Positions 14,644 through 40,586 of a stretch of DNA of 59,572 nt are shown here, piece after piece. How positions within the stretch are numbered: the first letter of the stretch is position 1; every line of letters begins with the position of its first letter. The position numbers and the translations under genes were made by a program. The stretch covers positions 1 to 59,572 of the forward strand of contig JAFVTS010000005.1 in assembly GCA_017503105.1 (NCBI GenBank). Reading direction: 5' to 3'. Under the pieces are notes generated by a model, which had not been told where the DNA came from, made no database searches, and saw nothing but the letters and a program-made list of their open reading frames with translations. The stretch is from Clostridia bacterium (GTDB lineage: Bacteria > Bacillota > Clostridia > Oscillospirales > CAG-272).

Positions 14644-17600
14644 ATGACTGCAAAGAAAGTAAAAAAAATCACGGTCGCATCGCTTCTTCTGCTGCTTGTT
14701 TTTACGCTCTGCGTCACCGTCGGCGCAGAGTCTGGAGGCAAAGCGGAAAAAGTCAGCGACGCGCCCTCAGCCGTCCTTACGGCAGAGGACGGGGAAAAGA
14801 CCGTTGACATCGTCAAGGACGGAAAAAGCGATTACACCGTAATTTTCTCCGCCTCCGACGCATTTCAGGCGGACGCCGATATTGCGAAGGATATCTCCAC
14901 GCAGATAAGACGCAATTACGGAGTTACCGTGCGCTACCGCCCCGACGAATCCACGAATGAAAGCGACTGCGAGATCCTGATTGGCGCGACGAACAGAGAG
15001 TTTTCCGCTGTCATTGCAAAAGAAATCGCCCGTCTTACGAAAAACGAAAACCTCGTTTTCATCATTGCTGAATCGAACGGCAAGCTTGCGTGCATCGCTA
15101 ACTCGAACGAGGCGTACGAAAAAGCTTCCGAAGCGCTCTTCGATCTTCTCGGAGATGAGAGTTTCAGCGTTACAGAGGGTCTTTACGTTACCTTTGTTAT
15201 GACCCGAGAGGAATACGACCAGGAGATCGCCGACAAGGAGGCTGCCGAAAGAGAGGAGAAGCTCAGGGAGCTGAGAGATAAGATCGCGGCGTTTGACACC
15301 GCGCTCTTCGGCGACAGAGATCCTATGCCCGACGGGCTTTACGACCCGCCCTATACCTACCCCGCAGTAGGACAGCACCCCAGACTCAACCTGACAGCCG
15401 ATATGCTTCCCGACATTCAAAGGATACTCGACGACCCTTACTACGCACAGCTCGCCGATGATTTCTGGAATACCGCAAACACCGACTGCGACGGTATTCT
15501 TGAGCCCGTTTCTTCTCTCGGAAAAACGTACAACTGGGTAAGTGCGGGCGCAGCTCCTTGGAAAAACGAGCTTGCCGTAATCGAAGCGAAGGCGCTTGCC
15601 TACCTTCTTACGGGTGACGAGCTTTACGGTTATCAGGCGATATACGCGGCAAAGAACCATATGCTCACCCTTGAGATCTCTCACGACATCGCGTCGGATA
15701 TATTCCGTATCTACGGATATTCGATGATGGTAACGGGCGAGGTCTACGACTGGTGCCACGACCTTATGACCGACCTTGACAAGGAGCAGTTCGTAAGAGG
15801 CGTTCAGAAATTCTACTGCGAGGACTGCGTCTGCGGTTCGGGCGACAAAATGACCATAGGCTTCCCGCCCACAGGTCAGAACGCCATAGCAGGACACGGA
15901 ACGAACGTTGCGCTCCACCGCGACTACGTTGCATTCGCTATTGCAATATTCGACGAGTACCCCGACTGGTGGAATCTCATCGGCGGACGCTTCTACGAGG
16001 AGTACGTCCCCGCGAACAACGTCTTCTACAAAGCGGGAATGAACACTCAGGGAACGAACACCTACATTTGGGGTAAGGGCTACGCGCAGATCTACTCCGC
16101 CTGGCTCGTTTACGTTATGTCGGGCGAGATGCCCTACGACCCGGGACTTGAGGACTTCGTTTACGGTCTTATGGGTCTGCGTCTTCCTAACGGAAACGTA
16201 TTCCAAAGCGGTGACGGCACAGCAAGCAGAGTCGGACACGCCGACGCTCTCACTTCGATGATTTATATCGCTCAGGCGCTCTTCCCGTCCGAGATGATAC
16301 AGAAGAACGCGAGAATACTTACGAACAACTACACGAAGTACGATATTTACAACTCCAACTTCATCACTCCCACTACCTCCCTTATTTTCCGCGCTAACGG
16401 AATCGAGAGCGAGATAGACGGTAAAAAGAGCGAAGGACTTGACCTCATCTGGTACTACGGCTCTCCTATGGGTCTTATGACGGTGCGCGACAGCTGGGAC
16501 ACGGATGCCGCGGCGGTTTATATGAAGGTCGGCGAGGTTTCGGGAACGAACCACGACCATCAGGATGCAGGAACGTTCCAAATTTATTATAAAGGCTGCT
16601 TCACCTCCGAGTCGAGCGTTTACGGCAAGAGCGCGGGCTACGGCACATCCTCGCACGACAAGTGGGCGCAGGCAACCATCGCGCACAACGGTCTTCTCGT
16701 ATACAATCCCGCTTTAGTCAGCAACGAGATAGTCTGGGGTGAGCGCGCGGGTGCACCTTGCGTTGCAAACCGCGAAACGTATTTCTATTCGGGCAGCCAG
16801 AGAATTCCCACGGGCCCCGCCGATCCCTACGATTGGGAATTCGGTGAAAAATGCGATATGGGTACCGTCACGGGTCACGATCAGTATCAGGATATAAACG
16901 GTACCGTTAAGTACGCATATCTTGCGGGTGATATTTCGACCGCATACAACACCGCGACCGTCGAAACAATAGAAAGACGTATGCTTACGATATACACGGG
17001 AAATGAAGAATTCCCGATGTTCTTCGTGGTCTACGACTATATGAAATCGAAGGACGCATCGTTCCAGAAATCCTTCCTCCTTCACGTTGCGGAGGAGCCC
17101 GTCGTTGACGGCAACACGGCTTACTTCGAGCAAGAGGACGGAAAGATAGTTCTCACTACCCTTACCGACGACGCGGTGATACGCACCTACGGCGGCGAGG
17201 AATACGGCACTTATTGGATAAACGGCTACGAAAACGAAGAGCTCGGTATTTCCATCCCCGGCAGAAAATGCAACATTGCCGAGGCGGCAGGCGGAACGGG
17301 TGCGGACAAGGGCGACGAGGACTTCCTTCCCGACAACGACCTTTGGGGAAGGATCCAGATCGACAATATGGGCAAGCTTGAGGACCACCTCCTCAACGTT
17401 ATCTACGTCACCGACGCAGGTAACGAAAACACCCTGACTCCCGTGAAATTTGAAAACGATATGGTGATCGGTATGAGCCTTGAGGACGTTATCACCGTCT
17501 TCAGCAAGACCGAATCCAAAAACCGCGCCGTTATGGAATTTACCACAGACGGCAAGGGGCTCAGAGAATACTACGTTTCGGGTATGTCCGAGGGCTCTTG

Positions 17601-20600
17601 GACGGTATACGTTGACGACGTCGTGGTAGCTCACGCGCACACCTCGGGCGATTCGGGACTCATCACCTTCAGAGCTCCTGCAGGAAACGTAAGACTTGAG
17701 CCCGGACGCGACGTAAGACCCGCCAATTCCGACGACATCAAGTTCACGATGAACGGCGGTATTCTTCCCGACGACGTCATTCACTTCTACACTCACGACG
17801 TTGAGTACGTTCTCCCCGAGCTTGCGAGCACGCCCGATATGGAATTTGCGGGCTGGTACGCAGACGAAATCTCCTCTGAAAGACTCTACACCATTCCCGT
17901 CGGAACAAGAGGAACCTTTAAAGTATTTGCCAAGTGGTATCGCTCGTACGTAGAGGATTACGAAAATTCTACGATAAACGTGCCTAACGCAACGAAGACA
18001 ATAAACGGATTCACTTATGCGGCAAACGGAAAGACCGGTGCAAAATACAGCACCGTCACCGATGAAGCTACGGGCAACACGTACCTGCTTTGGCAGTGCG
18101 GAGAAAAAGATCCCCAGTTTGACCTGTCAGGCTCTATGTTAGGATTCCTTGCCGACAAGAAGACAGTCACATTCCGACTTGACATAGCACTTGACGGTGA
18201 CGCACCGCCGATATCCTCGGCTTTCCGTTTAAGAGGTAACCGCGGAGCTAACTCCGGCGGCGTAAGTTCTAACAAAACCGTTCCCGTTTTCAGCGTTACG
18301 TCTTCCGGAAATATCAACCTCGGAGGCAGCGCGGCAAATACTATAGCAGTTTTGACGAAGGAATTCCAAACCTTCACGTTCAGCGTCGACTTCTCTGCCG
18401 AACTGATATATGCGTTTGACACGGAGGGAAATATTATTTCCAAGATGGCTCTTAAGCTTCCCAAAGCGTTCAGAGAGGAATTCCCGAACCCCGATGAAGT
18501 AACGGTTCAGGATTATTTGGAAGGTCTATTCTACATCTTCGACTGGTATACGGGAACGCAAAGCTCTTCCGACCACGCGCTCAGAATCGATAACATCAAA
18601 GTAACGGGCGGTCTTCCGAAGAATGCCGTCATTCCCGACGAATCCGCACCTAACGCAATAATTTATCATAATCTCGGCGGAGCAAGGCTCCCTGTCGGCG
18701 CTCCTTATTACTACGATGCGGAAAACGGAACAGCTCTTCCCGAGAGTTGCATCTCTTCTTCAGAACACGAATTCCTCGGCTGGTACAGCGACGAGAACTT
18801 CACGAAGCAGATCTTCTCCGTCCCCGCAGGTCTTACCTCTCAGTTCAACGTCTACGCAAGATGGCGTATGGAGATGAAGGAGAACTACGAGGGTGAGGAG
18901 TTTGAAGGCTTTGACATCTACTGTCCCGATGCAGAAACAGACAAAAAGAACCAAGCTATCAACGGCTTCAGCTACGAGATAAACAAAAAAACGGGTGCAG
19001 GCTTCAAGACCGTCAAGGACGGTGAGAACACCTACCTCGTCTGGACACCGGGCTCTGCCGACCCCATCCTGCGCGTTCACGGCTGTCTTAACAACTACAT
19101 CGGTGCGGAAAAATCCGTTACGTACAAGGTAAGCCTCGCGCTTGAAGAGGGTATGACGCCCTCGGCAACCACCTTCAGAGTCCAACAGGTCTCCTCCAAG
19201 AGCTTCCCCGTATTCACGACTAATACGAACGGCGATATACTTCTCGGCGGCAAGTCAAATCTCAAGATCGGCACGCTTTCGAGCGAGTTTACCGACCTTA
19301 TAATCACCGTTGACTTCCTTAACGCCACGATGACCGCCTATAACGCGGACGGCTCCGTAGCAAAGAACCCCGACACGGGCGAAAATCTCACGATGGCTAT
19401 ATCGAAGCCCTCCGCCTCCGAGGCGAAGGACCTCGTTGACTTCATCTCTTACACCGCCTACGCCTTCTCCTGGCAGGACAGCACGGCTAAAGACGTCGTT
19501 TCCGCAATAAGAATAGACGACGTTGCCGTCATCTCAGGACCGTATATCATTGAAGTTATGGACCCTGACTCGACGAATATTTATTACAAGAATCTCGGCT
19601 CCGCAAGCCTTCCCGAGGATGCACCCAAGGAATACGACACCGAAAAGGGCTCGGATCTTCCCATCCTCTCGGATTCCGCGACGGGCAAGTTTGCAGGCTG
19701 GTATCTTGACGCTCTTTACACGGAGAAGATCGACGCCATCCCCGCAGGCACTACGGGTCCCGTGGTCGTCTACGCAAAATGGCTTCCCAAGTACGTGGAA
19801 ACCTTCGAGGACGTAGAAGTTCCCGAGGGAACCGAGAAGATCACGCTTAACGAAGTCCATTACATCTCGTCCAAAAAGGACGGTGCCTCCGTTATGACCG
19901 AAAAGGACGCGGGCGGTAACACCTACCTCGTATGGAAAAAGGGCACTGCCGATCCTCAGCACGTCAAAAGCGGCGCGCTTTACGACTTCCTCGGTAAAGA
20001 AACGTCTATGACCTTCTCGGTCGATATGGCGACGTATGAAGATCAGCCCTTCTTTGCAACGGCACTTTATATCAGAGTTACGGGTTCGAACAATTTCACC
20101 CTCTTCTCAACCAAGGCTGACGGCAGCGTTTATCTCGGCGCTTCCGCAAGCGGCAAGAAGATAGGTCAGGTCACCGACGTGCTTACGAAGTTCACGGTTT
20201 CTCTTGACTTCAGAACGGGAAAGGCGTTTGCTTACGACCCTGCGGGCAACCTTATCACGGATGAAGAAGGCAACCCCATCAGCACTACGTTCACGGTTCC
20301 CAAGGCGTCCGAGTGCACGACGCTTCTCGAGTGGCTCGGCACACTTTCAAACTATAACTTCGTGTGGTATGCGGCAAGCGCAGGCGGCGCCGACGGTTAT
20401 ATGAAGTTTGACAACCTCACCCTTGCCGCAGGCGTTCCCGCGGCAGGAGAGATCGGGTCGGAGGTGCCCGACTGCGAACACGAATGGACGGACGCCACCT
20501 GCACCCAGCCCAAGACCTGCTCGGTATGCGGCAGCACCGAAGGCGCGCCTCTTCCGCACAGCTATTCATCAAACGGTGTCTGCGCGGTCTGCGGTGCCCT

Positions 20601-21309
20601 CGATCCCGACTTCCCTTATTTCTCCGAGGATTTTGAGAGCACCGTGCTCGACGCTTCAAACCCGACGGGTGAAGACAGCCCGTCGCTCAACACAACGAAA
20701 AACAGCATCATCTATCAGGTAAACAAAAAGGCGGGTGCCTCTTTCAAAACCGTAAATGACGGCGATAACACGTACCTCGTCTGGTCTAAAGGCGAAAACG
20801 ACCCTCAGTTCCAGAAGAACGGCGCGCTTTACAGCTTCCTCGGTGATAAAACGTCCTTCACCTTCTCCGTGAAAATGGCAAAGCACGGCGAAAGCCCCAC
20901 TATAGCAACGCAGTTTATGATAAGAGTCTCGGGCAGCGACAATTTCCGCCTCTTCGAAACGGATAAAGAGGGCAACGTTTACCTCTTCTCCGCCGCGGGC
21001 GGAATCAAGATCGGAAGCATCACGGAAGAGCTCACGACCTTTACCTTCTCCTTTGATTTCGCTACCGCAACGCTTCGCGCCCACAACGCCGACGGCAGCG
21101 TAATGCAGACGGAGGACGGCACGCTTTGCGAGATGACGGTCAGCGTCCCCTCGGCATCCGATTGCGAAACGATGCTTGAATGGCTCGGAACTCTTGAGAA
21201 ATACAACTTCGTGTGGTACGCTCCGAACGCGAACAACGTCGGTGCAGAGCTCGCAATAGACGATATAATTTTTAAAGCAGGCATCCCGACCGAAGAACCC
21301 ACAGCATAA
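14644..21309 (+). CDS. Giant secreted heparinase II/III-like protein 1 (divergent active site)
   Basis: 2,221 aa. Signal peptide 1-28; an N-terminal helper domain (about 50-195, with E-I-L-I-G-A-T-N-R); a short charged helix; then a heparinase II/III unit (about 240-900: alpha-toroid and beta-sandwich) with N-H-D-H-Q-D-A-G (His637, His639) and I-A-H-N-G-L-L-V. The C-terminal 1,200 residues alternate InlB-B (Flg_new) repeats (about 1030, 1338, 1644) and four lectin-like domains, with a Cys-rich C-x-x-C linker near 1940-1990 before the last. Where its three neighbours have H-G-S-E and G-T-Y-P-Q-G, it has H-G-T-N (Asn421) and G-M-N-T-Q-G (Asn467), so mechanism or activity probably differs. GAGGA lies 7 nt before the ATG at 14644. 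No wall anchor is visible. Confidence 0.85.
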   Translation: MTAKKVKKITVASLLLLLVFTLCVTVGAESGGKAEKVSDAPSAVLTAEDGEKTVDIVKDGKSDYTVIFSASDAFQADADIAKDISTQIRRNYGVTVRYRPDESTNESDCEILIGATNREFSAVIAKEIARLTKNENLVFIIAESNGKLACIANSNEAYEKASEALFDLLGDESFSVTEGLYVTFVMTREEYDQEIADKEAAEREEKLRELRDKIAAFDTALFGDRDPMPDGLYDPPYTYPAVGQHPRLNLTADMLPDIQRILDDPYYAQLADDFWNTANTDCDGILEPVSSLGKTYNWVSAGAAPWKNELAVIEAKALAYLLTGDELYGYQAIYAAKNHMLTLEISHDIASDIFRIYGYSMMVTGEVYDWCHDLMTDLDKEQFVRGVQKFYCEDCVCGSGDKMTIGFPPTGQNAIAGHGTNVALHRDYVAFAIAIFDEYPDWWNLIGGRFYEEYVPANNVFYKAGMNTQGTNTYIWGKGYAQIYSAWLVYVMSGEMPYDPGLEDFVYGLMGLRLPNGNVFQSGDGTASRVGHADALTSMIYIAQALFPSEMIQKNARILTNNYTKYDIYNSNFITPTTSLIFRANGIESEIDGKKSEGLDLIWYYGSPMGLMTVRDSWDTDAAAVYMKVGEVSGTNHDHQDAGTFQIYYKGCFTSESSVYGKSAGYGTSSHDKWAQATIAHNGLLVYNPALVSNEIVWGERAGAPCVANRETYFYSGSQRIPTGPADPYDWEFGEKCDMGTVTGHDQYQDINGTVKYAYLAGDISTAYNTATVETIERRMLTIYTGNEEFPMFFVVYDYMKSKDASFQKSFLLHVAEEPVVDGNTAYFEQEDGKIVLTTLTDDAVIRTYGGEEYGTYWINGYENEELGISIPGRKCNIAEAAGGTGADKGDEDFLPDNDLWGRIQIDNMGKLEDHLLNVIYVTDAGNENTLTPVKFENDMVIGMSLEDVITVFSKTESKNRAVMEFTTDGKGLREYYVSGMSEGSWTVYVDDVVVAHAHTSGDSGLITFRAPAGNVRLEPGRDVRPANSDDIKFTMNGGILPDDVIHFYTHDVEYVLPELASTPDMEFAGWYADEISSERLYTIPVGTRGTFKVFAKWYRSYVEDYENSTINVPNATKTINGFTYAANGKTGAKYSTVTDEATGNTYLLWQCGEKDPQFDLSGSMLGFLADKKTVTFRLDIALDGDAPPISSAFRLRGNRGANSGGVSSNKTVPVFSVTSSGNINLGGSAANTIAVLTKEFQTFTFSVDFSAELIYAFDTEGNIISKMALKLPKAFREEFPNPDEVTVQDYLEGLFYIFDWYTGTQSSSDHALRIDNIKVTGGLPKNAVIPDESAPNAIIYHNLGGARLPVGAPYYYDAENGTALPESCISSSEHEFLGWYSDENFTKQIFSVPAGLTSQFNVYARWRMEMKENYEGEEFEGFDIYCPDAETDKKNQAINGFSYEINKKTGAGFKTVKDGENTYLVWTPGSADPILRVHGCLNNYIGAEKSVTYKVSLALEEGMTPSATTFRVQQVSSKSFPVFTTNTNGDILLGGKSNLKIGTLSSEFTDLIITVDFLNATMTAYNADGSVAKNPDTGENLTMAISKPSASEAKDLVDFISYTAYAFSWQDSTAKDVVSAIRIDDVAVISGPYIIEVMDPDSTNIYYKNLGSASLPEDAPKEYDTEKGSDLPILSDSATGKFAGWYLDALYTEKIDAIPAGTTGPVVVYAKWLPKYVETFEDVEVPEGTEKITLNEVHYISSKKDGASVMTEKDAGGNTYLVWKKGTADPQHVKSGALYDFLGKETSMTFSVDMATYEDQPFFATALYIRVTGSNNFTLFSTKADGSVYLGASASGKKIGQVTDVLTKFTVSLDFRTGKAFAYDPAGNLITDEEGNPISTTFTVPKASECTTLLEWLGTLSNYNFVWYAASAGGADGYMKFDNLTLAAGVPAAGEIGSEVPDCEHEWTDATCTQPKTCSVCGSTEGAPLPHSYSSNGVCAVCGALDPDFPYFSEDFESTVLDASNPTGEDSPSLNTTKNSIIYQVNKKAGASFKTVNDGDNTYLVWSKGENDPQFQKNGALYSFLGDKTSFTFSVKMAKHGESPTIATQFMIRVSGSDNFRLFETDKEGNVYLFSAAGGIKIGSITEELTTFTFSFDFATATLRAHNADGSVMQTEDGTLCEMTVSVPSASDCETMLEWLGTLEKYNFVWYAPNANNVGAELAIDDIIFKAGIPTEEPTA

Positions 21310-21328
21310 AAACAGATAACGCTTTACT

Positions 21329-21361
21329 GCCCGACGCGCGTTTGCCGCGTCGGGCTTTTAT
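21329..21361 (+). terminator. Terminator behind lyase gene 1
   Basis: GCCCGACGCG and CGCGTCGGGC form a perfect 10-bp stem followed by TTTTATCTTTTA. Confidence 0.9.
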
Positions 21362-21423
21362 CTTTTATTAACTGAATTTTAATGCAATATTTCTGTTTTT
21401 AATTTAAAATAACTGATTTCGTA

Positions 21424-21452
21424 TTGAAAAAATCGTTACGGTATGGTAAAAT
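21424..21452 (+). promoter_or_regulatory. Promoter of lyase gene 2
   Basis: TTGAAA (21424-21429) and TAAAAT (21447-21452) are separated by 17 nt. The start codon is about 78 nt downstream. Confidence 0.7.
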
Positions 21453-21529
21453 ATAGATACAAAGTAATTTTAAATAAAAATTACGAACGAGATAGAAGCA
21501 AGCAAAAAAATCAAGAAAGAGAGAACGTT

Positions 21530-24500
21530 ATGGTCAACGCAAGAATCAAAAGAGGCATTCTTACGCTCACGGTGCTTCTGTTATTTACGGCACTCATCTC
21601 TTTTATATTCACGTTTGAGAACGAAAACGGAGAAAAAACCGACCACGGTTCCGTGCGTCTTTTGTCCGAGGACGAGGTCGCTGCGACGGATATCGTCAAG
21701 GACGGTGCGAGCGATTACGTGATAATCTTCTCCACCGACGACGGAATGCAGAGCGACAACGATTTTGCCAAAGAGCTTGAAAGCACTTTGCGGAAGAAGT
21801 ACGGCGTCAGAGTCCGTTACCGCGCCGACTCAAGCACGAAAGAAACGGAGCACGAGATACTTCTCGGTATAACTGACAGAGCCTTCTCGGAAGAGTTAAA
21901 CGAAGCGATAAAGGCTGTCGAAACGAACGGCGAGCTCATTTGGGTCGTGGCGGAAAAGGACGGCAAGCTCGCCTACCTTGCAAACTCTCCCGAGGCTTTT
22001 GAAAGAGGCATCGACGACTTTTTGGCTTACGCCCGCGACGACGGCTTCTCCGTGCCGTCGGGTATCCAAAAGATATTCACCCTGAGCCGCGCCGAATACG
22101 ACGCGGAGCTTAAAGAGGAACAGGACCGAATAGAGGCGGAAAAGGAGCTTGAGCGTCTTAAACGCATAGAAGAGCTCAAGGTGCTTATCACCGAGTTTGA
22201 ATACGCGGATTTCGGAGATGCTCCGAGCACCTCTATGGCGGGCAGCAGCTACGGCAAGCCCGCGGTATACCCGAATTCGGGCGAGCACCCGAGAATCAAC
22301 GTCACCGCCTATATGATACCGAAAATCCTCGAATATATGAAAACCGAGGAAGCCAAGTACACCGTCGCCGAATTCTGGAAGATGGCAAACGAAGAGTACG
22401 ACGGAATCCTTCCCGCGGCAACGGAGCATACCACGGGCAGGATAGGCGTTCATAATATGGACGAGCAAGGACTCGGAAAAATCGAGGCAAAGGCGTTTGC
22501 CTACCTCCTCACGGGTGACGAGCTTTACGCGTACGAAGCGATCTACGCTATGAAAAACTTCCTCACTACCGTTGATATACAGCACATCCACAGCGACCAA
22601 TGCCGTGAGTTCGGACGCATTATGTACTGCACGGCGGAGGTATACGACTGGTGCTACGGTCTTCTTACGGAAGACGACAAGGCGCAGTTTATTATGGCGT
22701 GCGCCGACATCGGCTCCTCGCGCAACCAGAACACCGATTTCGGAAACCAGATGGAGGTTGGATTCCCCCCGAGACTCCAGGGCTGCGTTTCGGGACACGG
22801 CTCTGAGCATCAGGTGCTTCGCGACTATCTTTCCATCGCCATTGCCATATTCGACGAGGACCCCACTTGGTACGAATGGGTCGGCGGTCTTGTATACAAT
22901 TATTTCGTCCCCTTCAGGGATTATTACTTCACCTCGGGCACGTATCCTCAGGGTATGAACGTCTACGCGCCCCACAGATTCGACGCGGACCTTTGGTCAG
23001 CCTGGCTGCTCCTTTCGGCAACGGGTGAGATACCTTACAGCTCTGATTTTGCAAGGGTAACGCGCTCGTTCTTCGCCAACGAAACACCCAACGGCTCGTT
23101 CTTCGGAACGGGTGACGGCGGAAGGCTTTCAAGCGGAACCAACTTCTGGCATCACGCCGTTATCTCGTCCGCTCTTTACGGTGACGAGCCGCTGAGATCT
23201 CAGGCGTTCAAATTCACCTCGGGCTTCTCGGGCTATTCGGGATATACCGTAAGCTTCTCGTTTGCGCATATGCTGATACTCAGCACGTCGTATCACGAAA
23301 AGAAAGAGATAGAAGAGCCCGTCGACCGCTTCTCCGAGACCGACCCCGTCGTTTACCTCGGCTCGCCGCTCGGTCAGATGACGGTCCGCTCTGCCTGGAA
23401 TGACGAAAACGCGGCGGCAACCTTTATGAAGCTCGGCGAGCGTACGACGGCAAACCACGAGCACGCGGACGCGGGAACCTTCCAGATCTTCTACAAGGGT
23501 CTTTACACGGGTGACACGGGCAGCTACGATAAATACGGCTCGACACACTGGACGTATTACCACACGCAGACCGTAGCACACAACGGACTTCTTATCTCCA
23601 ATCCCGCATTTACAGGAGACGACCCCTCCGTCCCTTCGGCTTACTTCTACTCGGGCGGTCAGAGAAAGCTCTCCGAAGCTAACAATCTTGAGACCTGGCT
23701 GACTTCAAATTACGACACGGGTACGGTCCTCGGCGCGGAATGGGCGTACAATAGCGACGGCTCGACCGACTACGCATACCTCGGCGGTGACATCACGGCA
23801 GCGTACGAAGCGCATACGGTCTCCTACGTCGGAAGACAGATGCTAACCCTTTACACGGGCAACCCCGACGCTCCGATGTACTTTATAGTTTACGATAAGA
23901 TCACGTCCGCAGGCGAGGATTTCAAAAAGACGTTCCTCCTTCACACGAAAAACGAGCCCGAAACAGATGAAGAAAACGGAACCGTTATCTCCACCCAAAG
24001 CGGAGGCAGACTCGTTCTTAAATCTCTGCTCGGCGGTGAGAGTATAACCGCCGTCGGCGGTGAGGGAATGACCTATGCGATAAACGGTCGTCAGTGCGCT
24101 ACGCTCAACGGAAGAGACGGCTCAGAGTGGGGGCGTGTTGAGATTTCTCCCACTTCGGAGGCGCTTACGCACCATCTTCTTAACTTTATGTACGTCACAG
24201 ACGCAGACAGCGAGCTTATGCTTGAGCCCGAGCTTCTGGTTGCAGATACGGAGAATGCAAGAGGCGCTCTCATAGACAAAAACGTGCTCCTCTTTGCCGA
24301 GGGCGACGGAGAGAACAACTCTTCCGAGATAGAACTCACCACCGAAGGCAGGGGGCTTCACCGCTTCATCGTTATGGGAATGTTCACGGGAACGTGGAAC
24401 GTTTCCGTTGACGGCGTAAGCGTGGCTCACGCCGTTTCCTCCGAGAGCGGCGGAATGATAACCTTCTACGCTCCCGCAGGTGACGTCCTCATCTCTCCCG

Positions 24501-27153: not shown

Positions 27154-27214
27154 GCACTCGGACAAAGACGAATAGTGACGAGAGGTATTGTGTTTTTACA
27201 CAGTACCTCTTTTC
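27154..27214 (+). terminator. Terminator behind lyase gene 2, within repeat element B
   Basis: AGAGGTATTGTG (27181-27192) and CACAGTACCTCT (27199-27210) form a 12-bp stem followed by TTTTCG. The upstream part (GCACTCGGACAAAGACGAAT) matches elements at 420 and 648 with several substitutions. Confidence 0.8.
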
Positions 27215-27322
27215 GTAATAAAACGAACAAATTACTAAATTAGAATAAATAAAATGTTAAAATAAACAAATTTATAGTTATTTTCTACAATTGCATAAAA
27301 AATATTTTGTTTATTTTACCAA

Positions 27323-27352
27323 TTGCGTTAGCACTGCGCGGTATGATATAAT
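27323..27352 (+). promoter_or_regulatory. Promoter of lyase gene 3
   Basis: TTGCGT (27323-27328) and TATAAT (27347-27352) are separated by 18 nt; the start codon is 35 nt downstream. Confidence 0.65.
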
Positions 27353-27386
27353 ATATACACAAAAAATATTTATTCAGGAGGTCTTT

Positions 27387-33300: not shown

Positions 33301-33884
33301 AGAACGGCACTCTCCCCGGCTCGAAGCTCACCTTTACGGCAAACGGCCTTACGGGCGCGAAGCTGCTCGTTGTCAAAGACGAGAGCGGCAACGAATACCT
33401 CTCGTTTAACAGAGGTGACCTGGAAACGAACGACCCTCAGCTCAGATACAACGCGCAAAACGTTTCGGCGGGATCTGACGGAGCTATCACGTTCCACTTC
33501 TCACTCGCCCTTCCCGACGAGGGAGAATGTATGAATGCCGACGTCCGCGTAAGAAAATACGTAACGAGCACGCAAAGAGAAGATTTCCTGCTCCTGAAGC
33601 TTAAAGACGGCAAGGTATATCTTGGCTCAAGCACCACGGTCGTAGCAACGCTCACCGAGGACTTTACGGACGTTTCCGTCACGTATAACGCGAAGGATCT
33701 GACACTCACGGCATACACGAACGACGGCACCGTCATCGCTCAGACCCAGATCAACGCGAACTTCGGTACGGATTGGGCTCAGGGCATCGACAACGCCATA
33801 TACTTCCGTGCTACGGGCGGTAACGCTATAAAGATCGACAACGTCTGGATCGCGGAATGCGGATTTGACCCAAGCTTTATTTAA
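27387..33884 (+). CDS. Giant secreted heparinase II/III-like polysaccharide lyase 3
   Basis: 2,165 aa: signal segment (about 8-25), helper domain with E-I-L-I-G-N-T-N-R, charged helix, heparinase II/III unit with H-G-S-E (His430, Glu433), G-T-Y-Q-Q-G (Tyr479), N-H-E-H-A-D-A-G (His651) and V-S-H-N-S-L-L-I. It is expected to be a beta-eliminating polysaccharide lyase secreted from the cell. The C-terminal half has four InlB-B repeats (about 1013, 1300, 1592, 1880) alternating with four lectin-like domains. The second and third lectin domains (both with N/D-D-F-T-G-S-T and Y-Q-F) are clearly duplicated copies. GGAGG lies 7 nt upstream of the ATG at 27387, which decides this start over the upstream in-frame codon at 27291. 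Confidence 0.87.
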   Translation: MKTAKKRLGAFLSVLVFAAVLLTVLLLKQNAETAPTDIAKDDLTVRTVSEEKTVLVPGNDYTIIFSSDDNQLDAEIATKLRSSLSKSGQRVNARSDAVQKEGKYEILIGNTNRELSSVLQEACENAVSNNSLVWGFAFRDGKFAFAAADNTSFERGSNDLFELFITDDFSFEVPSDLWLIVSLSRAEYEEELKAEQDRIEAEKEAERQKRIEALKGEIANFTYADFTDYVTLDFTVMPESAWGAPALYPTPGEHPRVNVTKELLELVREYIKTEEGALLYDGLISLTNESFNGVLNPAYEHTSGRIGFHNMNEKGLAIIEARAFAYLVTGDAEYGYNAILSMKNFLKTIKIGWISSDQCREFGRIIYCTAEIYDWCHDLLTEEDKNQFMVAVTDICASEVDPQYSGKCQSGDRQIEVGYPPSGQGSVSGHGSEHQILRDYLSVAIAIFDENPSWYNYVGARVYNDYIVTRNYYYQSGTYQQGIFNYGPFRHNADIWSAWLLLSATGENPYNDTLQNITNSFFEYQLPDGTFFGTGDGSRPKGPTARMMNDAELIAALYGDKGLRTRVLQAWNNFANVSGTSIDMSFAHFLILNTEYIRRAGTAEGEDIHSGKVVVSYHSYPVGQMMARSEWKNENAPAIFMKIGEKTTANHEHADAGSFQIFYKGLYSGESGVYDKYGSPHFRYYHQATVSHNSLLIFNPDAAEYELDGDSVETSTNLAKCFYSGGQRTLGETSTLESWLNNSSYNTGEVTGHEYVLNADGSADYAYLAGDITTAYQSSQASYVGRRMLTIFTEDESYPMYFVVYDRISALQETFVKKFLLHTPTEPVIDEETKTVTLTDGDGRLVLHSLRGGDTFEAIGGEGKNYYVNGIQCASATTKTDGMWGRVEISHTGTQISEFLSFMYVTDAQNDEKLAPATIETNLLTGLQLGSDVIIFAKSEERNTEELIFEAEGTGLNRYFVSGLFEGTWNIEVDGINVAHRVSSVDGGFITFYAPAGEVHVKPGRDIAPSNGGRIIYNSYGGVVPDDAPQVYEIGIPVVLPENIVRGRDAFLGWYTTPTFDEGTLITEVVGTDKGKFHVYAKYKAVPVLEDYEDKSFAFGEKTSIIGDLTYGGSGKAGSFFETIKDEVSGNTYLAMSRTETDMQLDSKKSVGDYIGADTAITFEIDLAQNGDKVPMSSNFRLRESSNQQTVQLFTTATDGTVKFGTTKLFDLTNEFKKVIITVDFAEGKITAYNIFGDTLATRSFSVPKASTAENTLDWMYTLSYTFNWWIGGGESILVDNVKVYCGAYDASELVLPEGEARIIYKASPGTLPEGYPMTYKAGVPTTLPIPLIDNGTFLGWYTTASFDEGTEISVIDKETAEEPVTVYAKYSITVFEDDFTGSTLDVDATSATVNDILYQFNGKTGTTAKAVTDALGNTYIRVYTDGADGSINNYADIASAILACGGKATFTIDLATLEDGRSGTSTFRLRASSSSDILPLFGTSGGKVYLGADPSLPIMTLGTSMQKVIITLDIYSSTLVALDPYGALLATKTVAPPKGSGIESLEEWISGVGFAFNWHLSSGGGIAFDNVSIYTGDYTPLIEEIPENSVKVNYQTNGGIFGITPDKYVSNEVPFTIPTDVTNGDYIFAGWYTSPNFESGTEITQIPAGLEGEITVFAKWIGTLYSNDFTGSTVDVADSSPTVDSIQYQFASKTGAYAKAVTDSLGNTYIKIYTDGTDATVNNFTSLADKTEAGGGKLTFTVDLATHEDGRSGTSTFRMRVSSSSDIIPIFSTAKGAVYLGADVTKQIATLSTELQRIAVTLDVNNSSITAYTLYGEKIASASVSVPKASTETSLSSWINNVRYCFNWYFSSGGGIAFDNVNIYVGDYIPETEVIPDGHTKVTYETNGGSFATAPERYAPTADADYILPTDISNGDFIFKGWYTTATFENGTEITSIPKGSAEEIKVYAKWVGKVFSESFTGKEGASIDSKNGTLPGSKLTFTANGLTGAKLLVVKDESGNEYLSFNRGDLETNDPQLRYNAQNVSAGSDGAITFHFSLALPDEGECMNADVRVRKYVTSTQREDFLLLKLKDGKVYLGSSTTVVATLTEDFTDVSVTYNAKDLTLTAYTNDGTVIAQTQINANFGTDWAQGIDNAIYFRATGGNAIKIDNVWIAECGFDPSFI

Positions 33885-33900: not shown

Positions 33901-33935
33901 GCCCCGCGGACCTCGCAAGGTCCGCGGGGCTTTTT
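33901..33935 (+). terminator. Terminator behind lyase gene 3
   Basis: GCCCCGCGGACC and GGTCCGCGGGGC form a perfect 12-bp stem with a 6-nt loop, followed by TTTTTC. Confidence 0.95.
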
Positions 33936-34042: not shown

Positions 34043-34071
34043 TTGATAAATAGAATTCGATATGTTATAAT
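34043..34071 (+). promoter_or_regulatory. Promoter of lyase gene 4
   Basis: TTGATA (34043-34048) and TATAAT (34066-34071) are separated by 17 nt; the start codon is 72 nt downstream. Confidence 0.8.
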
Positions 34072-34142
34072 AAAATTGGAAGTTTTATTTTTTTACAAGA
34101 GCGCCCATTTTTACGAGGCGCAAGATTAAGAAAGAGGTACGT

Positions 34143-37100
34143 ATGGAAAAGACGAAGAAAATCACCTTGGCATTTTTATCAATGCTTTTGGCAACAATGA
34201 TCGCCGCGGTGTTTCTGACCGAAAGCGCGGCAGAGCGAAAGACCGACGACGTTTACGCCGCCCGCCTTACGGCAGAAGAGAGCGAAACGGTCGTTCTCGG
34301 CGCGCCCTCGGGCAGCGGCATCGAGCATAACGAATACAGAATAATCGTAAGCTCCGACAGCTTTATGGTAGATATGGACTTCGCCGTTGAGTTCAGTGAC
34401 TATCTGAGAAAGCTCGGAACGCTCATACGCTATTCGATCGACACGAGAGCCGAGGATGATTTTGAAATACTCTTCGGTAACACGAACAGAGCTCTCTCCA
34501 AGGAGCTCGTCGATCTATGCAAGACATCTACTGCCAATGACGAGCTCGTATGGGGATATATGTTCCGTGACGGCAAGCTTGCCTTTGCGGCAAACTCAGA
34601 CGAGGCGTTCACCAGAGGTACGAAGGAATTCAAGGAACTCTTCTTCCCCGAGGACGGCGTGTTCACCGTGCCTTCCGATCTTATGAAGCTCTCGGTGCTT
34701 TCAAGAGCAGAATACGATGAAGAGGTAAGAATTGAAAACGAGCGTCTTGAAGCTGAAAAGGAAGCGGAAAGGCTGAAGTATATAGAAGAGCTGAAGGCTC
34801 TCATCTCAGGGTTCGAGCTCTCGCAGTTCGGCGACGTTTCTCTTGATACCTCAATGCCCGCGTCGCCTTACGGAAAGCCTAACTTATACCCTAACGCGGG
34901 CGAGCACCCGAGGCTTAACGTAACGTCGTATATGATCCCCCTTATCAACGAATTTTTTGACAGATACGAGGCGAAGTATTTGAAGGAAAAGTTCTATGCC
35001 TTCGCAAACTCGGATTATACGGGTATACTCCCTCCCGCAAAAGAGGTAACGGAAGGCAGAAAGGGCTTCCACAACGTAGACGAGTCGGGTCTTATGAAAA
35101 TAGAAGCGAGGGCGCTCGCCTATCTCCTCACAGGGGATGAAAAATACGGCTACGAGGCGATATACGCCATCAAGAATTACCTCACCACGCTTGACCTCAG
35201 GCAAATATACAGCGACCAATGCCGCGAGTTCGGAAGAACTATAATGTGCGCGGCAGAGGTATACGATTGGTGCTACGATCTTCTTTCTGACGCCGACAAG
35301 GAGCAGCTCATTCTCGGCATTACCGACATTTGCGCGGGCACGAACGAGATGGGACGCCAGATGGAGGTCGGCTACCCTCCTCTCGGTCAGGGCTCCGTTT
35401 CGGGTCACGGCTCGGAAAGACAGATATTGCGAGATTATTTCTCGGTCGCCGTCGCTATATACGACGAGGACCCCTCGTGGTACGAATTTGTCGCGGGCAG
35501 AATCTATAACGAGTACGTCCCCTTCAGAAACCACTATTATCAGTCGGGCACTTATCCTCAGGGTGTAAACCTCTACGCCGCGGGAAGACACAGCGCCGAC
35601 ACCTGGAGCGCGTGGATAATGCTCACCTCCGTCGGAGAGACCGCATACGATCCCGCACTCAGGAATATCGTAAAATCCTTCTACGCATACGAGCTTCCTG
35701 ACGGAACGTTCTTCGGCACGGGAGACTCGGGAAGAAACTCGGGCTCCACGAGGTTTAATACCTGTGCTTATCTTATGATGGGTCTTTTCGAAGACGATTA
35801 TCTTTATTCGTGGATATACAAGAACACTTCCGCTCTTAAAAGGATAAGCGCGTCAAACCTTGAGATGTCATATTCTCATATGGCGATACTTCTCTCGAAT
35901 TATTTTTCAGACCCGAATAACACCGTTGAACCGATATCAAGATATGACGGCGTCAGCGTCATATCCTACAACGGTTATCCAATAGGGCAGATGATCACGC
36001 GCTACGATTGGCAAAACGGAGCGGCAGCCGCGACCTTTATGAAAATAGGTGAGAGAACGACTGCAAACCACGAGCACGGTGACGCGGGCACCTTCCAGAT
36101 CTTCTACAAGGGGCTTTACACGGGCGAATCGGGTCTTTACGACAAATACGGCTCAACGCACTTCACCTTCTATCATCAGGCGACCGTCGCCCATAACGGA
36201 CTTCTCGTTTATAACGCCAACCTTTACGGCTCGGAAACGGACAGCGAAGGAGTTCCCGTCAACAATAAGAGATATTGGTATTCGGGCAGTCAGAGAGACC
36301 CCGGCGAATCCGGAGATCTTTGGGAATGGCTTAATGATGACGTTTACGACACAGGCTCGGTCACGGACGTCGAATACGGAATAAACGAAGACGCAACGGC
36401 GGATTACGCTTATCTTGCGGGGGACATTACCGCCGCTTACGATAAGCAGACCGTTGATTACGTCGGTCGCCGTATGTTCACCCTTTACACGGGCAACGAA
36501 GAGTTCCCGATGTACTTTATAGTCTACGACGCCATCACCTCGGATTCCGAAGAATACGAGAAGAGATTCCTTCTTCAAACGCCTACCGAGCCCGAAATCG
36601 ACGAGGTGGCAAAGACCGTTACGATAAAGGACAAAGAGGGCAAGCTCGTTCTTACCTCGCTCGTCGGAGCTGAGAGATTTGACGCCCTCGGCGGCACGGA
36701 CCGCACCTTCCTTATAAACGGCGTCAACTGCGAGGCCATAGGCGGCTCCGACGGTAACAATTGGGGTCGTGTGGAAATCGCCGCCCCCACGGGCGAGAAA
36801 ATGACCGAGATGCTGAACTTTATGTACGTTACGGATATCGGCAACGAGAACAAGACCGTTCCTACCCTCATTGAAAATGATAAGATCGTAGGAACGAGAG
36901 TGGAAAATACCGTCGTGCTTTTCGCGAAGGATCTCGACCCGAGCTGCGAGAGCTTTAACTTCACCACGGAAGGAAGCGGACTTGTCAGACACTTCATTAC
37001 GGGCGTGCACGGCGGCACGTGGCACGTCACGGTCGACGGAGTATCGGTCGCAACCGTTACGGCATCCGACGAAGGACACCTGCTCGACTTCTACGCTCCG

Positions 37101-40100
37101 TGCGGTAACGTCACGGTTCGCCCGGGCTCCGACGTTCCCCCCGCGAACGGCGGAAGGATAATCTACAACGTCTTCGGAGGACTCGTTCCCGACGACGCGC
37201 CCCTTACGTTTGAAATCGGCGTGCCCGTAACGCTTCCGACAAACATCGTCCGCGGAAGCGACATATTCATCGGCTGGTATTCACATCCCTCGTTGGCTGA
37301 CGAATATCTCATCACCGAGGTAAACGCCACCGAAAAGGGCAGATATAACGTTTACGCTAAATATAAGGCGTTCCCCGTGAACGAAAACTATGAATCCTCG
37401 GTAGTTAACCACGAGGTATCAAGTAAAACGGTAAACAAAATATCCTATAACGGCTCCGGAAAGGCAGGCTCAAAATTCGAAACCATCACAGAAAACGGCA
37501 ACTCATATCTCAGGATAACGAAGGGAACCAGCGACCCTGCAGTCAACGTCAGCAACGCTATTCCCGACTACATAGGGGTAGACACAAAGCTCACAATAAG
37601 GATAGACCTTGCCAAAGAGGCAGACACCCCCATATTCGCAAGCAATTGCCGTCTTCGTGCATCCAGCTCCGCGGACACGATCTCGATATTCAAAACCTCG
37701 GTTGACGGCTCCGTATTGCTTATGGGCAAGACCAAGGTGATGACGCTGACGGAAAGCTTCCAGACGCTTGCTATCACCATTGATTTTGAAGCGGGAACTA
37801 TGACCGCTTATGAAAAATACGGCAAAGAGATAGCTACTTCTACCTTCTCGCCTCCCACAGTTTCCGGTCTTACCGCGACGTCCGAATGGATGGGGACTCT
37901 CGTCTCTACCTTCAACTGGTATATGTCGGGTGCCGACGGAACGCTTCTCGTCGACAATTTGTACGTGTACGTCGGTGACTTTGTGCCCGACGTAGAGATA
38001 ATCCCCGAAGGAATGGGCAAAATAATCTACAACACGGGCGGCAATCCTCTCCCCTCAGACGCACCGATATATTACGAGATGGGAACGGTCACGGAGCTTC
38101 CGATCCTCACTTCCAACGTAGATGAGTTTATCGGTTGGTATACAAGCCCGAGCTTTGAGAAAGAAACGCTTATAAGTGCCATTCCCGAGGACGCCGAGGG
38201 CGAATTTGAGATCTTCGCAAGATGGCGCGGAATTTACATCAAAGAAGACTTCGAGGACGTAGGAGAGATCACCTTCACCGAAGAGATGGGCACCTTCGGT
38301 CAGATAGGTCTTAACGCAGGCACGTCTAAGGTAGGCGCGTCGGCAAGGACCGAAACCGATGAAAACGGAAACACCTATCTTGTCTTTATAAGAGGCGAGA
38401 ACGATCCCGCTCTGTACGTATCGGGAGGCATCGGTGATTTCGCAACGCCCGCTCATGCACTGACCGTAGAGCTCTCTATGGCTCTCGTTCCCGGAATGAG
38501 CGCGGCGAACATAGCTTACAGAATAAGAGCGAAGATAGACGGCAAAAATACTCATCTCATCCCCTTCGCGGTAGCTTTGGATGGCAAGGTGCTCCTTGGC
38601 GGAAAGTCCGATTACGTAATAACCGAGCTCACGGAAGAGTTCCAGACGGTCGCCGTTACGGTGAACTGGGACACCTCGACCTTCACGGCTTATCTTGACG
38701 GTGTGAAGGTCAAGGAGATGAAAGCCGATCTTTCGGTCTGCAATCTTGAATGGCTCTCCTCCGTCACGGGTGCTCTGAACTTCTACTCATCCAAGAGCGG
38801 CGAGGCTTTGAAGTTCGATAACTTCCTCGCTTACACCGACGTATATCCCGACAAGGGACTCGTCGCCCCCGAGGGCAAAGGTGCTATCACTTACGAAGCA
38901 GGCGGCGCTACGCTGCCGAGCGATGCCCCCATCTACTTTGACAAAAACGGCGGCACCGTGCTTCCCGTGCCCGTCAAGGACAGAGATGAATTCCTCGGCT
39001 GGTACACCGACCCCGAATTTTCCGAAGACAGTAAAATAAGCGTCATCCCCGCAACGGAGAACGACAGCATTACCGTCTACGCAAGATGGCGCGGAATTTA
39101 CATTAACGAAGACTTCGAGGACGTAGGAGAGATCTCCTACACCGAAGAGTCAGGAATGTTCGGTCAGGTAGGTCTTAGCTCGAGCGCGGGCAAGGTGGGC
39201 TCGTCAGCAAGGACCGAAACGGATGAAAACGGCAACACTTACCTCGTCTTTATAAGAGGCGAGAACGATCCCGCTCTGTACGTATCGGGAGGCATCGGTG
39301 ATTTCGCGTCCTCCAATCACGCCCTGACCGTAGAGCTTTCTATGGCTCTCGTTCCCGAGATGAGCGCGGCGAGCATAGCTTACAGAATAAGAGCGAAGAT
39401 AGACGGCAAAAATACTCATCTTAACGTCTTCTCGGTAACTTCGGAGGGCAAGGTTCTTCTTGGCGGAAAGTCCGAGTACGTAATAACCGAGCTCACGGAA
39501 GAGTTCCAGACGGTCGCCGTTACGGTGAACTGGGACACCTCGACGTTCACGGCTTATCTTGACGGTGTGAAGGTCCAGGAGATAGAAGTCGATCTTTCGT
39601 ATAATAATCTCGAATGGCTCTCATCCGTCACGAGTGCTATGAACTTCTGGTCAAACTCAGGCGGCGAGGCGTTGAAGTTCGATAACTTCCTCGCTTACAC
39701 CGACGTATATCCCGACAAAGGGCTCGTCGCCCCCGAGGGCAAGGGTGCTATCACTTACGAAGCAGGCGATGCTACTCTGCCGAGCGACGCCCCCATCTAC
39801 TTTGACAAAAACGGCGGCACCGTGCTTCCCGTGCCCGTCAAGGACAAAGATGAGTTCCTCGGCTGGTACACCGACCCCGAATTTTCCGAAGACAGTAAAA
39901 TAAGCGTCATCCCCGCGACGGAGGACGACAGCATTACCGTCTACGCAAGATGGCGCGGAATATTCATAAACCAAAACTTTGACAGTGCGGCAGACGCCGA
40001 ATACGTAGCCACCTCGGGCAAGATAGCAGGCGTATCCTTCAATCCCAAGGCGGGCGCTTCATTCAAGACCGCGACGGATGATTCGGGCAATAAGTACGTC

Positions 40101-40586
40101 GTTCTCGAAATAAATAACGAGAGCGCCGTCGACCCGCATTTGGGAATGTCGGGCAGCATCCCCGCTTTCTCGACCAAGAACAAGGCGCTTACTCTTGAGG
40201 CTTCCCTCTCGCTTAAAGAGGGCGCGTCTGCACTTGCGTGCTCTTACAGACTGCGCTCGCGTGTGGACGGTAAAAAGCTCGACCTTTATCTCTTCACGGT
40301 AGCGAAGGATGGAAGAGTACTTCTCGGACAAAACGGCGCTGCAATATGTACGCTGAGCTCCGAGGAATTTACCGACATCGCGGTAAGCGTTAATTGGGAT
40401 ACGGGGCTTCTTACGGGCTACGTAAACGGAACCCCCGTGGCAAGTGCCGAATTTGACACACAGACCAGAGGTCTTGACTGGCTCGCGGGTGTTTCTAACA
40501 TTATGTACTTCTATGCGTACGGCAGTGAGGGCGCTATTATGATAGACGACCTCTTTGCCTACACGGATGAATACTCAGCAAAGTAA
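34143..40586 (+). CDS. Giant secreted heparinase II/III-like polysaccharide lyase 4
   Basis: 2,147 aa. Signal peptide (about 1-30, ending near E-S-A-A-E), helper domain with E-I-L-F-G-N-T-N-R, charged helix, and heparinase II/III unit with H-G-S-E (His422, Glu425), G-T-Y-P-Q-G (Tyr471), N-H-E-H-G-D-A-G (His643) and V-A-H-N-G-L-L-V. The tail contains four InlB-B repeats (about 1003, 1291, 1579, 1867) alternating with four lectin-like domains; the unit at residues 1362-1649 is repeated at 1650-1937 with about 40 differences in 288 residues by my count. AGAGGTACGT precedes the ATG. It is the last of the four-gene array and is closed by a strong terminator. As in the others, no LPxTG, SLH or dockerin is visible, so the protein is either released or held by its lectin-like modules. 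Confidence 0.87.
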   Translation: MEKTKKITLAFLSMLLATMIAAVFLTESAAERKTDDVYAARLTAEESETVVLGAPSGSGIEHNEYRIIVSSDSFMVDMDFAVEFSDYLRKLGTLIRYSIDTRAEDDFEILFGNTNRALSKELVDLCKTSTANDELVWGYMFRDGKLAFAANSDEAFTRGTKEFKELFFPEDGVFTVPSDLMKLSVLSRAEYDEEVRIENERLEAEKEAERLKYIEELKALISGFELSQFGDVSLDTSMPASPYGKPNLYPNAGEHPRLNVTSYMIPLINEFFDRYEAKYLKEKFYAFANSDYTGILPPAKEVTEGRKGFHNVDESGLMKIEARALAYLLTGDEKYGYEAIYAIKNYLTTLDLRQIYSDQCREFGRTIMCAAEVYDWCYDLLSDADKEQLILGITDICAGTNEMGRQMEVGYPPLGQGSVSGHGSERQILRDYFSVAVAIYDEDPSWYEFVAGRIYNEYVPFRNHYYQSGTYPQGVNLYAAGRHSADTWSAWIMLTSVGETAYDPALRNIVKSFYAYELPDGTFFGTGDSGRNSGSTRFNTCAYLMMGLFEDDYLYSWIYKNTSALKRISASNLEMSYSHMAILLSNYFSDPNNTVEPISRYDGVSVISYNGYPIGQMITRYDWQNGAAAATFMKIGERTTANHEHGDAGTFQIFYKGLYTGESGLYDKYGSTHFTFYHQATVAHNGLLVYNANLYGSETDSEGVPVNNKRYWYSGSQRDPGESGDLWEWLNDDVYDTGSVTDVEYGINEDATADYAYLAGDITAAYDKQTVDYVGRRMFTLYTGNEEFPMYFIVYDAITSDSEEYEKRFLLQTPTEPEIDEVAKTVTIKDKEGKLVLTSLVGAERFDALGGTDRTFLINGVNCEAIGGSDGNNWGRVEIAAPTGEKMTEMLNFMYVTDIGNENKTVPTLIENDKIVGTRVENTVVLFAKDLDPSCESFNFTTEGSGLVRHFITGVHGGTWHVTVDGVSVATVTASDEGHLLDFYAPCGNVTVRPGSDVPPANGGRIIYNVFGGLVPDDAPLTFEIGVPVTLPTNIVRGSDIFIGWYSHPSLADEYLITEVNATEKGRYNVYAKYKAFPVNENYESSVVNHEVSSKTVNKISYNGSGKAGSKFETITENGNSYLRITKGTSDPAVNVSNAIPDYIGVDTKLTIRIDLAKEADTPIFASNCRLRASSSADTISIFKTSVDGSVLLMGKTKVMTLTESFQTLAITIDFEAGTMTAYEKYGKEIATSTFSPPTVSGLTATSEWMGTLVSTFNWYMSGADGTLLVDNLYVYVGDFVPDVEIIPEGMGKIIYNTGGNPLPSDAPIYYEMGTVTELPILTSNVDEFIGWYTSPSFEKETLISAIPEDAEGEFEIFARWRGIYIKEDFEDVGEITFTEEMGTFGQIGLNAGTSKVGASARTETDENGNTYLVFIRGENDPALYVSGGIGDFATPAHALTVELSMALVPGMSAANIAYRIRAKIDGKNTHLIPFAVALDGKVLLGGKSDYVITELTEEFQTVAVTVNWDTSTFTAYLDGVKVKEMKADLSVCNLEWLSSVTGALNFYSSKSGEALKFDNFLAYTDVYPDKGLVAPEGKGAITYEAGGATLPSDAPIYFDKNGGTVLPVPVKDRDEFLGWYTDPEFSEDSKISVIPATENDSITVYARWRGIYINEDFEDVGEISYTEESGMFGQVGLSSSAGKVGSSARTETDENGNTYLVFIRGENDPALYVSGGIGDFASSNHALTVELSMALVPEMSAASIAYRIRAKIDGKNTHLNVFSVTSEGKVLLGGKSEYVITELTEEFQTVAVTVNWDTSTFTAYLDGVKVQEIEVDLSYNNLEWLSSVTSAMNFWSNSGGEALKFDNFLAYTDVYPDKGLVAPEGKGAITYEAGDATLPSDAPIYFDKNGGTVLPVPVKDKDEFLGWYTDPEFSEDSKISVIPATEDDSITVYARWRGIFINQNFDSAADAEYVATSGKIAGVSFNPKAGASFKTATDDSGNKYVVLEINNESAVDPHLGMSGSIPAFSTKNKALTLEASLSLKEGASALACSYRLRSRVDGKKLDLYLFTVAKDGRVLLGQNGAAICTLSSEEFTDIAVSVNWDTGLLTGYVNGTPVASAEFDTQTRGLDWLAGVSNIMYFYAYGSEGAIMIDDLFAYTDEYSAK
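38226..39953 (+). repeat. Two tandem 864-bp repeats inside lyase gene 4
   Basis: The segment starting CGCGGAATTTACAT at 38226 starts again at 39090, and a third, diverged unit starts at 39954. Spacing is exactly 864 bp (288 codons) both times, and long stretches of the first two copies are identical at DNA level. Each unit encodes one lectin-like domain plus one InlB-B repeat. Confidence 0.95.

Follow-up and report, generated by a model that had tools for sequence, protein, structure and literature searches.

A 24-copy family of giant heparinase II-like proteins, probably exported, in a single Clostridia genome

Heparinase II of Pedobacter heparinus (HepB; CAZy family PL21; Protein Data Bank (PDB) entry 2FUQ) was crystallised as a chain of 747 amino acids (aa) with a single core. 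In PCHepII, mutants of His199 and His403 lost all activity on heparin, a Tyr254 mutant retained some, and EDTA inhibited the enzyme fully (PMC10656541). The GAGases of family PL35 and the lyases of family PL33 belong to the same fold group, share its catalytic logic and show broad or shifting substrates on one fold (PMC12088678, PMC11848413); in GAGase II, a PL35 enzyme, alanine mutants of His403, Asp405, Asp421 and His457 were wholly or largely inactive (PMC12088678). The Mn of human dermatan sulfate epimerase 1 (DS-epi1) is bound via His452, Glu470 and Asn481, and heparinase II, whose metal is zinc, conserves the geometry of that site (PMC8006597). Here we analyse four consecutive genes for very large heparinase II-like proteins in a 59,572-nucleotide stretch of DNA from a Clostridia bacterium (contig JAFVTS010000005.1 of assembly GCA_017503105.1; the whole stretch is called the window), and the family to which they belong. 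In our judgement it is probable that this is a 24-member, lineage-specific family of giant exported lyases of the PL21 type, most of them held at the cell surface, acting on little-sulfated uronate polysaccharides and specialised by class.

With each taken to begin at the first start codon that follows a stop, the four consecutive open reading frames (ORFs), all on the plus strand, comprise 2,227, 1,893, 2,197 and 2,147 codons. The likely start of gene 2 lies at 21530, which gives 1,864 aa, and that of gene 3 at 27387, with AGGAGG ahead of it, which gives 2,165 aa. A sequence-only reading of this DNA by a model had described four consecutive giant genes for proteins of about 1,860–2,220 residues with one domain order; the ORFs and hidden Markov models built from the family itself confirm this (1,864–2,227 aa), with a domain of about 150 aa, a core of about 800 aa and a tail of alternating InlB-type repeats and modules of about 200 aa following one another in all four. 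All four also begin with a strongly hydrophobic segment. Genes 1, 3 and 4 carry a motif of the type E-I-L-x-G-x-T-N-R, which that reading had given for each protein; in gene 2 the corresponding letters are T-D-R. The genes are laid out as follows (classes, in heparinase II numbering, are described below; C numbers are our handles for contigs; tail modules are given as InlB-type plus other).

14626–21309, plus strand: gene 1, 2,227 aa; ~150-aa domain 14788–15231, core 15250–17748, tail 17737–21282 (3+4 modules); class B active site with Asn at 205, Lys at 261, His408 kept and Glu at 425; nearest core in the genome, the tailless 781-aa copy on C30 (54% identity).
21443–27124, plus strand: gene 2, ORF of 1,893 aa; ~150-aa domain 21668–22114, core 22154–24544, tail 24533–27109 (3+3 modules); class A (canonical heparinase II site); nearest core, the C4 copy (69% identity).
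27291–33884, plus strand: gene 3, ORF of 2,197 aa; ~150-aa domain 27510–27965, core 28005–30440, tail 30429–33860 (4+4 modules); class A; nearest core, the C19 copy (66% identity).
34143–40586, plus strand: gene 4, 2,147 aa; ~150-aa domain 34275–34730, core 34770–37169, tail 37158–40571 (4+4 modules, among them a pair of ~200-aa modules with 82% identity); class A; nearest core, that of gene 2 (54% identity).

The closest PDB sequences to the core are those of Pedobacter heparinus heparinase II. Searched singly, the core of gene 4 matched 2FUQ at E 9e-76, that of gene 1 at E 4e-74 and one class C core at E 3e-67; a profile of all 24 family cores, within which genes 2 and 3 were covered, matched it at E 6e-127. 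Far behind heparinase II in the profile search came entries of families PL35, PL15, PL12 and PL17; sequence similarity to PL35 is far weaker, with the chondroitinase 9o3q at E 2e-9. The homology to 2FUQ extends over some 670–770 residues. Hepar_II_III_C is above the Pfam cut-off in two of the four window proteins and HepII_C in three, and every protein passes at least one of them. The heparinase II/III assignment made from the letters alone was thus right, and the 2FUQ matches narrow it to heparinase II of the PL21 type. Unlike the crystallised chain with its one core, 22 of the 24 family ORFs have 1,561–2,953 aa (at least 1,500 aa each, the longest 2,953) and a repeat tail, and most carry the extra N-terminal domain.

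We searched the assembly from which the window comes (2,603,637 bases in 44 contigs, 96.5% complete and 1.4% contaminated) and extracted ORFs, which gave the number of 24 once two duplicate partial ORF rows had been dropped; two of the ORFs are cut by contig ends. Together they take up 145,098 bp, or 5.57% of the assembly. The ~150-aa domain occurs in 19 copies, InlB-type repeats (84 in all) and ~200-aa modules (79) occur in 23, and a hydrophobic N-terminal segment in 21, one of the remaining three being cut by a contig end. Further clusters lie on C32, with four ORFs within about 35 kb, on C31, with two on either strand, and on C1, with three copies in a row of which the third is on the opposite strand, and therefore four in a row is nothing special in this genome. 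The array had been called expanded and diversifying, which understated its scale. The possibility, also raised in the sequence-only reading, that all four are one recently amplified gene fails on recency: the window cores are 37–54% identical to each other, and three of the four have their nearest relative on another contig. Judged by their cores, then, the four window genes are not recent copies of one another.

On C31, a 1,117-aa copy (16236–19589) without a signal segment or ~150-aa domain adjoins a 2,211-aa copy (19604–26239; locus L065). It begins 14 bases past the stop of the larger gene, in a different frame, and is possibly coupled to it or a remnant.

The active sites were compared in MAFFT alignments, on which the classes, named by us, rest. 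Arg148, Arg261 and Asn405 are presumably active-site residues of heparinase II. Positions 408 and 425 are taken as metal positions because the His-to-acid spacing is 17–18 residues in GAGase II, DS-epi1 and heparinase II alike; His440 and His451 are alignment positions and not assigned metal ligands. PMC12088678 describes what His202, Glu205, Tyr257 and His406 do. For gene 4 these residues fall as follows.

35406–36077, plus strand: active-site span of gene 4, by alignment to heparinase II.
Gene 4 residues H422, E425, Y478 and R482: His202, Glu205, Tyr257 and Arg261 of heparinase II.
Gene 4 residues N642-H643 and H645: Asn405-His406 and His408.

All 24 cores retain His202, Tyr257, Asn405 and His406. 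Class A (six copies: genes 2, 3 and 4 and those at C19, C4 and C32:136807) has the canonical residue set, keeping Arg148, Glu205 and Arg261, as well as His408, an acid (Asp or Glu) at 425 and His440, each in six of six. In the other classes the site departs from that of heparinase II. Class B (gene 1 and the C30 copy) has Asn at 205 and Lys at 261, and a C15 copy is intermediate (Ser 205, Lys 261, Asn 425, His408 kept). The 15 copies of class C, none of which lies in the window, all combine Gly 205 with Lys 261; His408 is lost in 15, Asp425 in 14 and His440 in 15, His451 is kept in 11, and a His appears at 411 in 14 copies and at 441 in all of them. The 15 group alone with support 95/87, and together with one similar-signature copy from the metagenome genome SIG701 they form a clade with 100/100. 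Glu205 is accordingly kept in 6 of 24 copies (class A, three of them in the window) and replaced in 18 (by Gly in 15, Asn in 2, Ser in 1), and His408 together with an acid at 425 is kept in classes A and B, 8 of 24. The residue at 148 of the copy at C31:19604 reads differently between two alignments. In contrast to GAGase II, where the metal residues are required (PMC12088678), the aligned positions are lost in class C. Eleven of 616 alignment columns separate class A from class C, and five of these lie within four residues of His202, Glu205, Tyr257 or His406, as do 30 of the 616 columns overall (p 7e-5; 3e-4 to 8e-4 at other thresholds). Given these class differences in the metal site and the pocket, the substrates, mostly unsulfated uronate glycans, probably differ between the classes.

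At E 1e-20 the core was found in 16 of 69 genomes of the genus. Outside the genus the family is rare among the genomes searched (it was present in 6 of 295 sampled across the order and in 2 of 398 sampled across the phylum; the window's own genome is included each time). Ten of the 16 core-bearing genus genomes show at least nine matching pieces, these numbers being pieces rather than genes and lower bounds for genomes G000, G024, G032 and G359. In two congeners, G024 and G359, we extracted 15 core ORFs each (12 and 11 complete, 3 and 4 partial), some of them adjacent. Their core is the same as that of the window family, but the complete ORFs have 879–1,056 aa (one has 790), and none of the 30 matches the ~150-aa, InlB-type or ~200-aa models at E 1e-3. 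Among the 23 complete copies His408, Asp425 and His440 are kept in 23, 23 and 21, and His at 441 is present in 12.

A tree of 72 rows, which took in the G024 and G359 copies with more than 600 aligned residues (12 and 11, with seven partial ones left out) and covers some congeners, has a branch (SH-aLRT 96) that sets all 24 copies of our genome apart, two copies from SIG701 lying among them. SIG701 is a metagenome genome with 13 core-matching pieces, one of them weak. For nine of the 12 G024 copies the sister is a copy from G359. No branch of this tree separates the outgroup from the rest, and its root is weak. The simplest reading would be two separate amplifications, the second older than the split between G024 and G359. 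No description of a PL21 or heparinase II expansion (in Bacillota, in Oscillospiraceae or the rumen, together with InlB repeats, or in the form of paralogue families) appeared among the literature matches listed, as judged by titles and abstract openings. What is new is not the kind of enzyme but the scale of the family, the giant form with its tail, and class C.

Large core-bearing ORFs of 2,779–2,982 aa also occur in Oscillospiraceae SIG507 (L045, L046, L047 and L060). No match to any of the three extra domain models was seen in them, and Gly 205 and Tyr 148 occur together with a kept His408 in three of the four.

Possible substrates were approached through the rest of the genome. PF00884 also covers LTA synthase-like proteins, which are not separated in the congener counts given here. 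We found no PF00884 sulfatase match in the window's genome, and in this, too, the setting differs from that of heparinase II; a control search matched in 10 of 14 named genomes. Since 7 of 10 congeners searched have PF00884 matches, a lack of sulfatases across the genus was rejected. On C14, two frames of the GH88 type (one above the PF07470 cut-off, one below) adjoin a short-chain dehydrogenase gene and a gene of the KduI/IolB family. Two PL12-like proteins of 643 and 649 aa show no signal segment by eye. Genes for alpha-L-rhamnosidase, GH95, GH29 and GH2 lie near family members or related loci, in a Pfam survey of 30 chosen neighbours from 27 stretches (L064, L066, L067 and L072 left out). 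Without naming a single glycan, this gene set is consistent with the utilisation of unsaturated uronates derived from little-sulfated glycans that carry rhamnose and fucose.

The explanation we consider probable, a surface-held family of PL21-type lyases, would work as follows. The hydrophobic N-terminus would hold most copies at the cell surface. The core, presumably an (alpha/alpha) toroid with a beta-sandwich, would cut uronic acid polysaccharides by beta-elimination via His202, Tyr257 and His406, and the alternating tail would serve as a spacer between wall and core and retain wall material or glycan. The products would then be imported and finished by the cytoplasmic PL12-like lyases, the GH88-type unsaturated-uronyl hydrolases and a route like that of KduI and KduD.

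Several observations weigh against this explanation. All four window proteins fall below the cut-off of the NCBIfam equivalog for HepB heparin/heparan sulfate lyase (NF045571), with 317–365 bits against 600, or 53–61% of it; the name heparinase should therefore not be carried over, and by annotation standards the core, although its sequence is of the heparinase II (PL21) lineage, is not a heparin lyase. The five PF07470 (GH88-type) matches in the genome are weak (best E 6e-9), and two of them share a frame on C18 for which GH127 is the better reading. Genes 2, 3 and 4 have their aligned active-site residues in common (Asp or Glu at 425), so that distinct substrates for these three would be speculative; the strong divergence is that of the 15 class C copies elsewhere in the genome. 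In one copy from G359, Gly 205 and Lys 261 go with intact metal positions, and a G015 copy (L131:1379-3556, minus strand) combines Gln 408 and Ala 425 with a retained Glu205 and Arg261; each change thus occurs singly, so neither alone marks a function. For the ~150-aa domain, a profile search against the PDB and Pfam scans of members yielded nothing convincing. A Pfam scan of 63 of the 79 ~200-aa modules found no family that matched more than one module (four families had one member each, at E 0.01). Profiles of these modules gave weak, short PDB matches, to LM2363 (E 0.005, 17-row profile) and intimin (E 0.039, 63-row profile), which were not reproduced between profiles. The label lectin-like, given earlier to these tail domains, finds no support in the Pfam and PDB searches.

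A bolder form of our explanation would make class C a new, metal-independent branch of the heparinase II fold, its catalytic His/Tyr/Asn/His set retained, its metal site taken apart and its pocket rebuilt for a uronate linkage outside the known range of PL21 enzymes, and the 24 lyases surface receptors and scissors in one, each for one glycan variant. This is possible but doubtful.

All copies might instead be ordinary host glycosaminoglycan lyases that cut heparan sulfate or related animal glycans, their number only raising the dosage. The closest solved relative is indeed a heparin/heparan sulfate lyase whose residue set class A keeps, and metagenome-assembled genomes of UBA1740 from the dairy cow hindgut have been linked to mucin glycans (PMC9750977), so a mucosal habitat is possible. 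Set against this are the missing PF00884 sulfatase, the change of both Glu205 and Arg261 in 18 of 24 copies, and the copies themselves, which are long diverged and not near-identical; we regard the proposal as unlikely.

The tails bear on another alternative, namely that the proteins are mainly adhesins whose repeats bind and vary the surface, the lyase core being secondary or lost in some copies. InlB-B repeats had been read in the tails, and PF09479 (Flg_new/List_Bact_rpt) is above its cut-off in all four window proteins (42.6–93.5 bits against 27), as is TIGR02543, which likens them to InlB B-repeat or Listeria-Bacteroides repeat proteins; what differs is that the repeats here alternate with ~200-aa modules behind a lyase core. 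Roughly half of each window protein is tail, and the tails change through duplications within a protein: for 28 of the 79 ~200-aa modules the nearest relative is in the same protein, as with the 82% identical pair of gene 4. The other 51, however, are closest to a module of another protein, the catalytic residues are intact in every copy, and in each of the two congeners 15 core ORFs are maintained that lack tails of this kind. A primarily adhesive role therefore seems quite improbable.

Some copies, those of class C above all, could be uronyl C5-epimerases or other non-lyase enzymes on the heparinase II fold. Human DS-epi1 has that fold together with its catalytic residues and metal site, and small active-site changes are proposed to turn a lyase into an epimerase (PMC8006597). 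DUF4962, named for an epimerase N-terminal domain (PMC8006597), matches all four window proteins below its cut-off (17.8–26.6 against 28.7 bits). The metal ligands of DS-epi1 are needed for activity or folding (PMC8006597), however, and class C is without the aligned positions; the sequence matches, moreover, are to lyases. An epimerase is thus very unlikely.

Remodelling or release of the bacterium's own exopolysaccharide was suggested by the neighbourhood of gene 1. What had been called an exopolysaccharide operon beside the array does adjoin gene 1, as a polymerase/sugar-transferase unit, but it consists of only two genes, lies on the opposite strand, and no tie to the lyases was found. The 30 scanned neighbours, which represent some family loci, include GH95, GH78, GH2, GH39/42-like and esterase genes and no comparable unit, and this role is highly improbable. 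That unrelated or strain-variant contigs binned together inflate the copy number is scarcely credible: there are 44 contigs and two copies are cut by contig ends, but the assembly has the completeness and low contamination given above, all 24 copies lie on one side of a well-supported branch, four are intact in the window contig, and with 69% identity in the closest core pair the copies are not strain variants.

Other genes on the minus strand of the window, with a related gene elsewhere, are listed here.

11610–14111, minus strand: 833-aa fusion of a bacterial sugar transferase and a glycosyltransferase group 1 domain, adjoining an O-antigen-ligase-like gene (Wzy_C).
3153–8693, minus strand: ORF of 1,846 aa with two tandem units of GxDLY and SGNH-hydrolase (Lipase_GDSL_3), possibly a polysaccharide esterase.
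46246–47985, minus strand: 579-aa BspA-type leucine-rich repeat protein (LRR_5).
51441–55247, minus strand: 1,268-aa protein that resembles a BspA-type leucine-rich repeat protein by eye.
C1:93898-97038, outside the window: another LRR_5 protein, between family members.

As to expression, the following signals were found around the four genes, hairpins being compared with shuffled sequences and promoter-like sites scored out of 12.

21329–21355, plus strand: terminator hairpin after gene 1 (z -3.9).
27180–27211, plus strand: terminator hairpin after gene 2 (z -5.3; missed by the consensus scan).
33901–33930, plus strand: terminator hairpin after gene 3 (z -6.0).
40598–40621, plus strand: terminator hairpin after gene 4 (z -6.0).
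14494–14523, plus strand: promoter-like site of gene 1 (10/12, TG preceding the second hexamer).
21424–21452, plus strand: promoter-like site of gene 2 (10/12, TG preceding the second hexamer).
27344–27352, plus strand: TGATATAAT, a possible extended -10 upstream of gene 3, before which a promoter-like site scores 9/12.
34043–34071, plus strand: promoter-like site of gene 4 (11/12, TG preceding the second hexamer).

The strong terminator that had been read after each gene is borne out, since all four hairpins fold far better than shuffles. Sites resembling sigma70 promoters likewise lie upstream of all four genes, but in two regions such sites are no commoner than chance (15 against 12.9 +/- 3.7 in shuffles, and 9 against 7.0 +/- 3.2), and therefore a separate promoter for each window gene is only plausible. 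Separate regulation of the four, claimed on these grounds, keeps the support of the terminators and loses that of the promoters. When the sequences upstream of 23 of the 24 family genes were screened for a common regulatory motif, five 8-mers exceeded the maximum of 20 shuffles (5 genes): four A/T-rich ones (in 6–7 of 23) and CAAAAACG (in 6 of 23).

The above results suggest that a gut-type bacterium devotes more than 5% of its genome to one lyase fold, and that a second amplification in the same genus arose separately. They are also a warning against annotation as heparinase, as transfer of the name would predict glycosaminoglycan degradation in a genome in which no PF00884 sulfatase was found. 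The family and its congeners offer a natural series of related active sites, from the canonical one to those without the metal-site residues, in which the roles of the metal and of Glu205 and Arg261 in lyase specificity would be testable.

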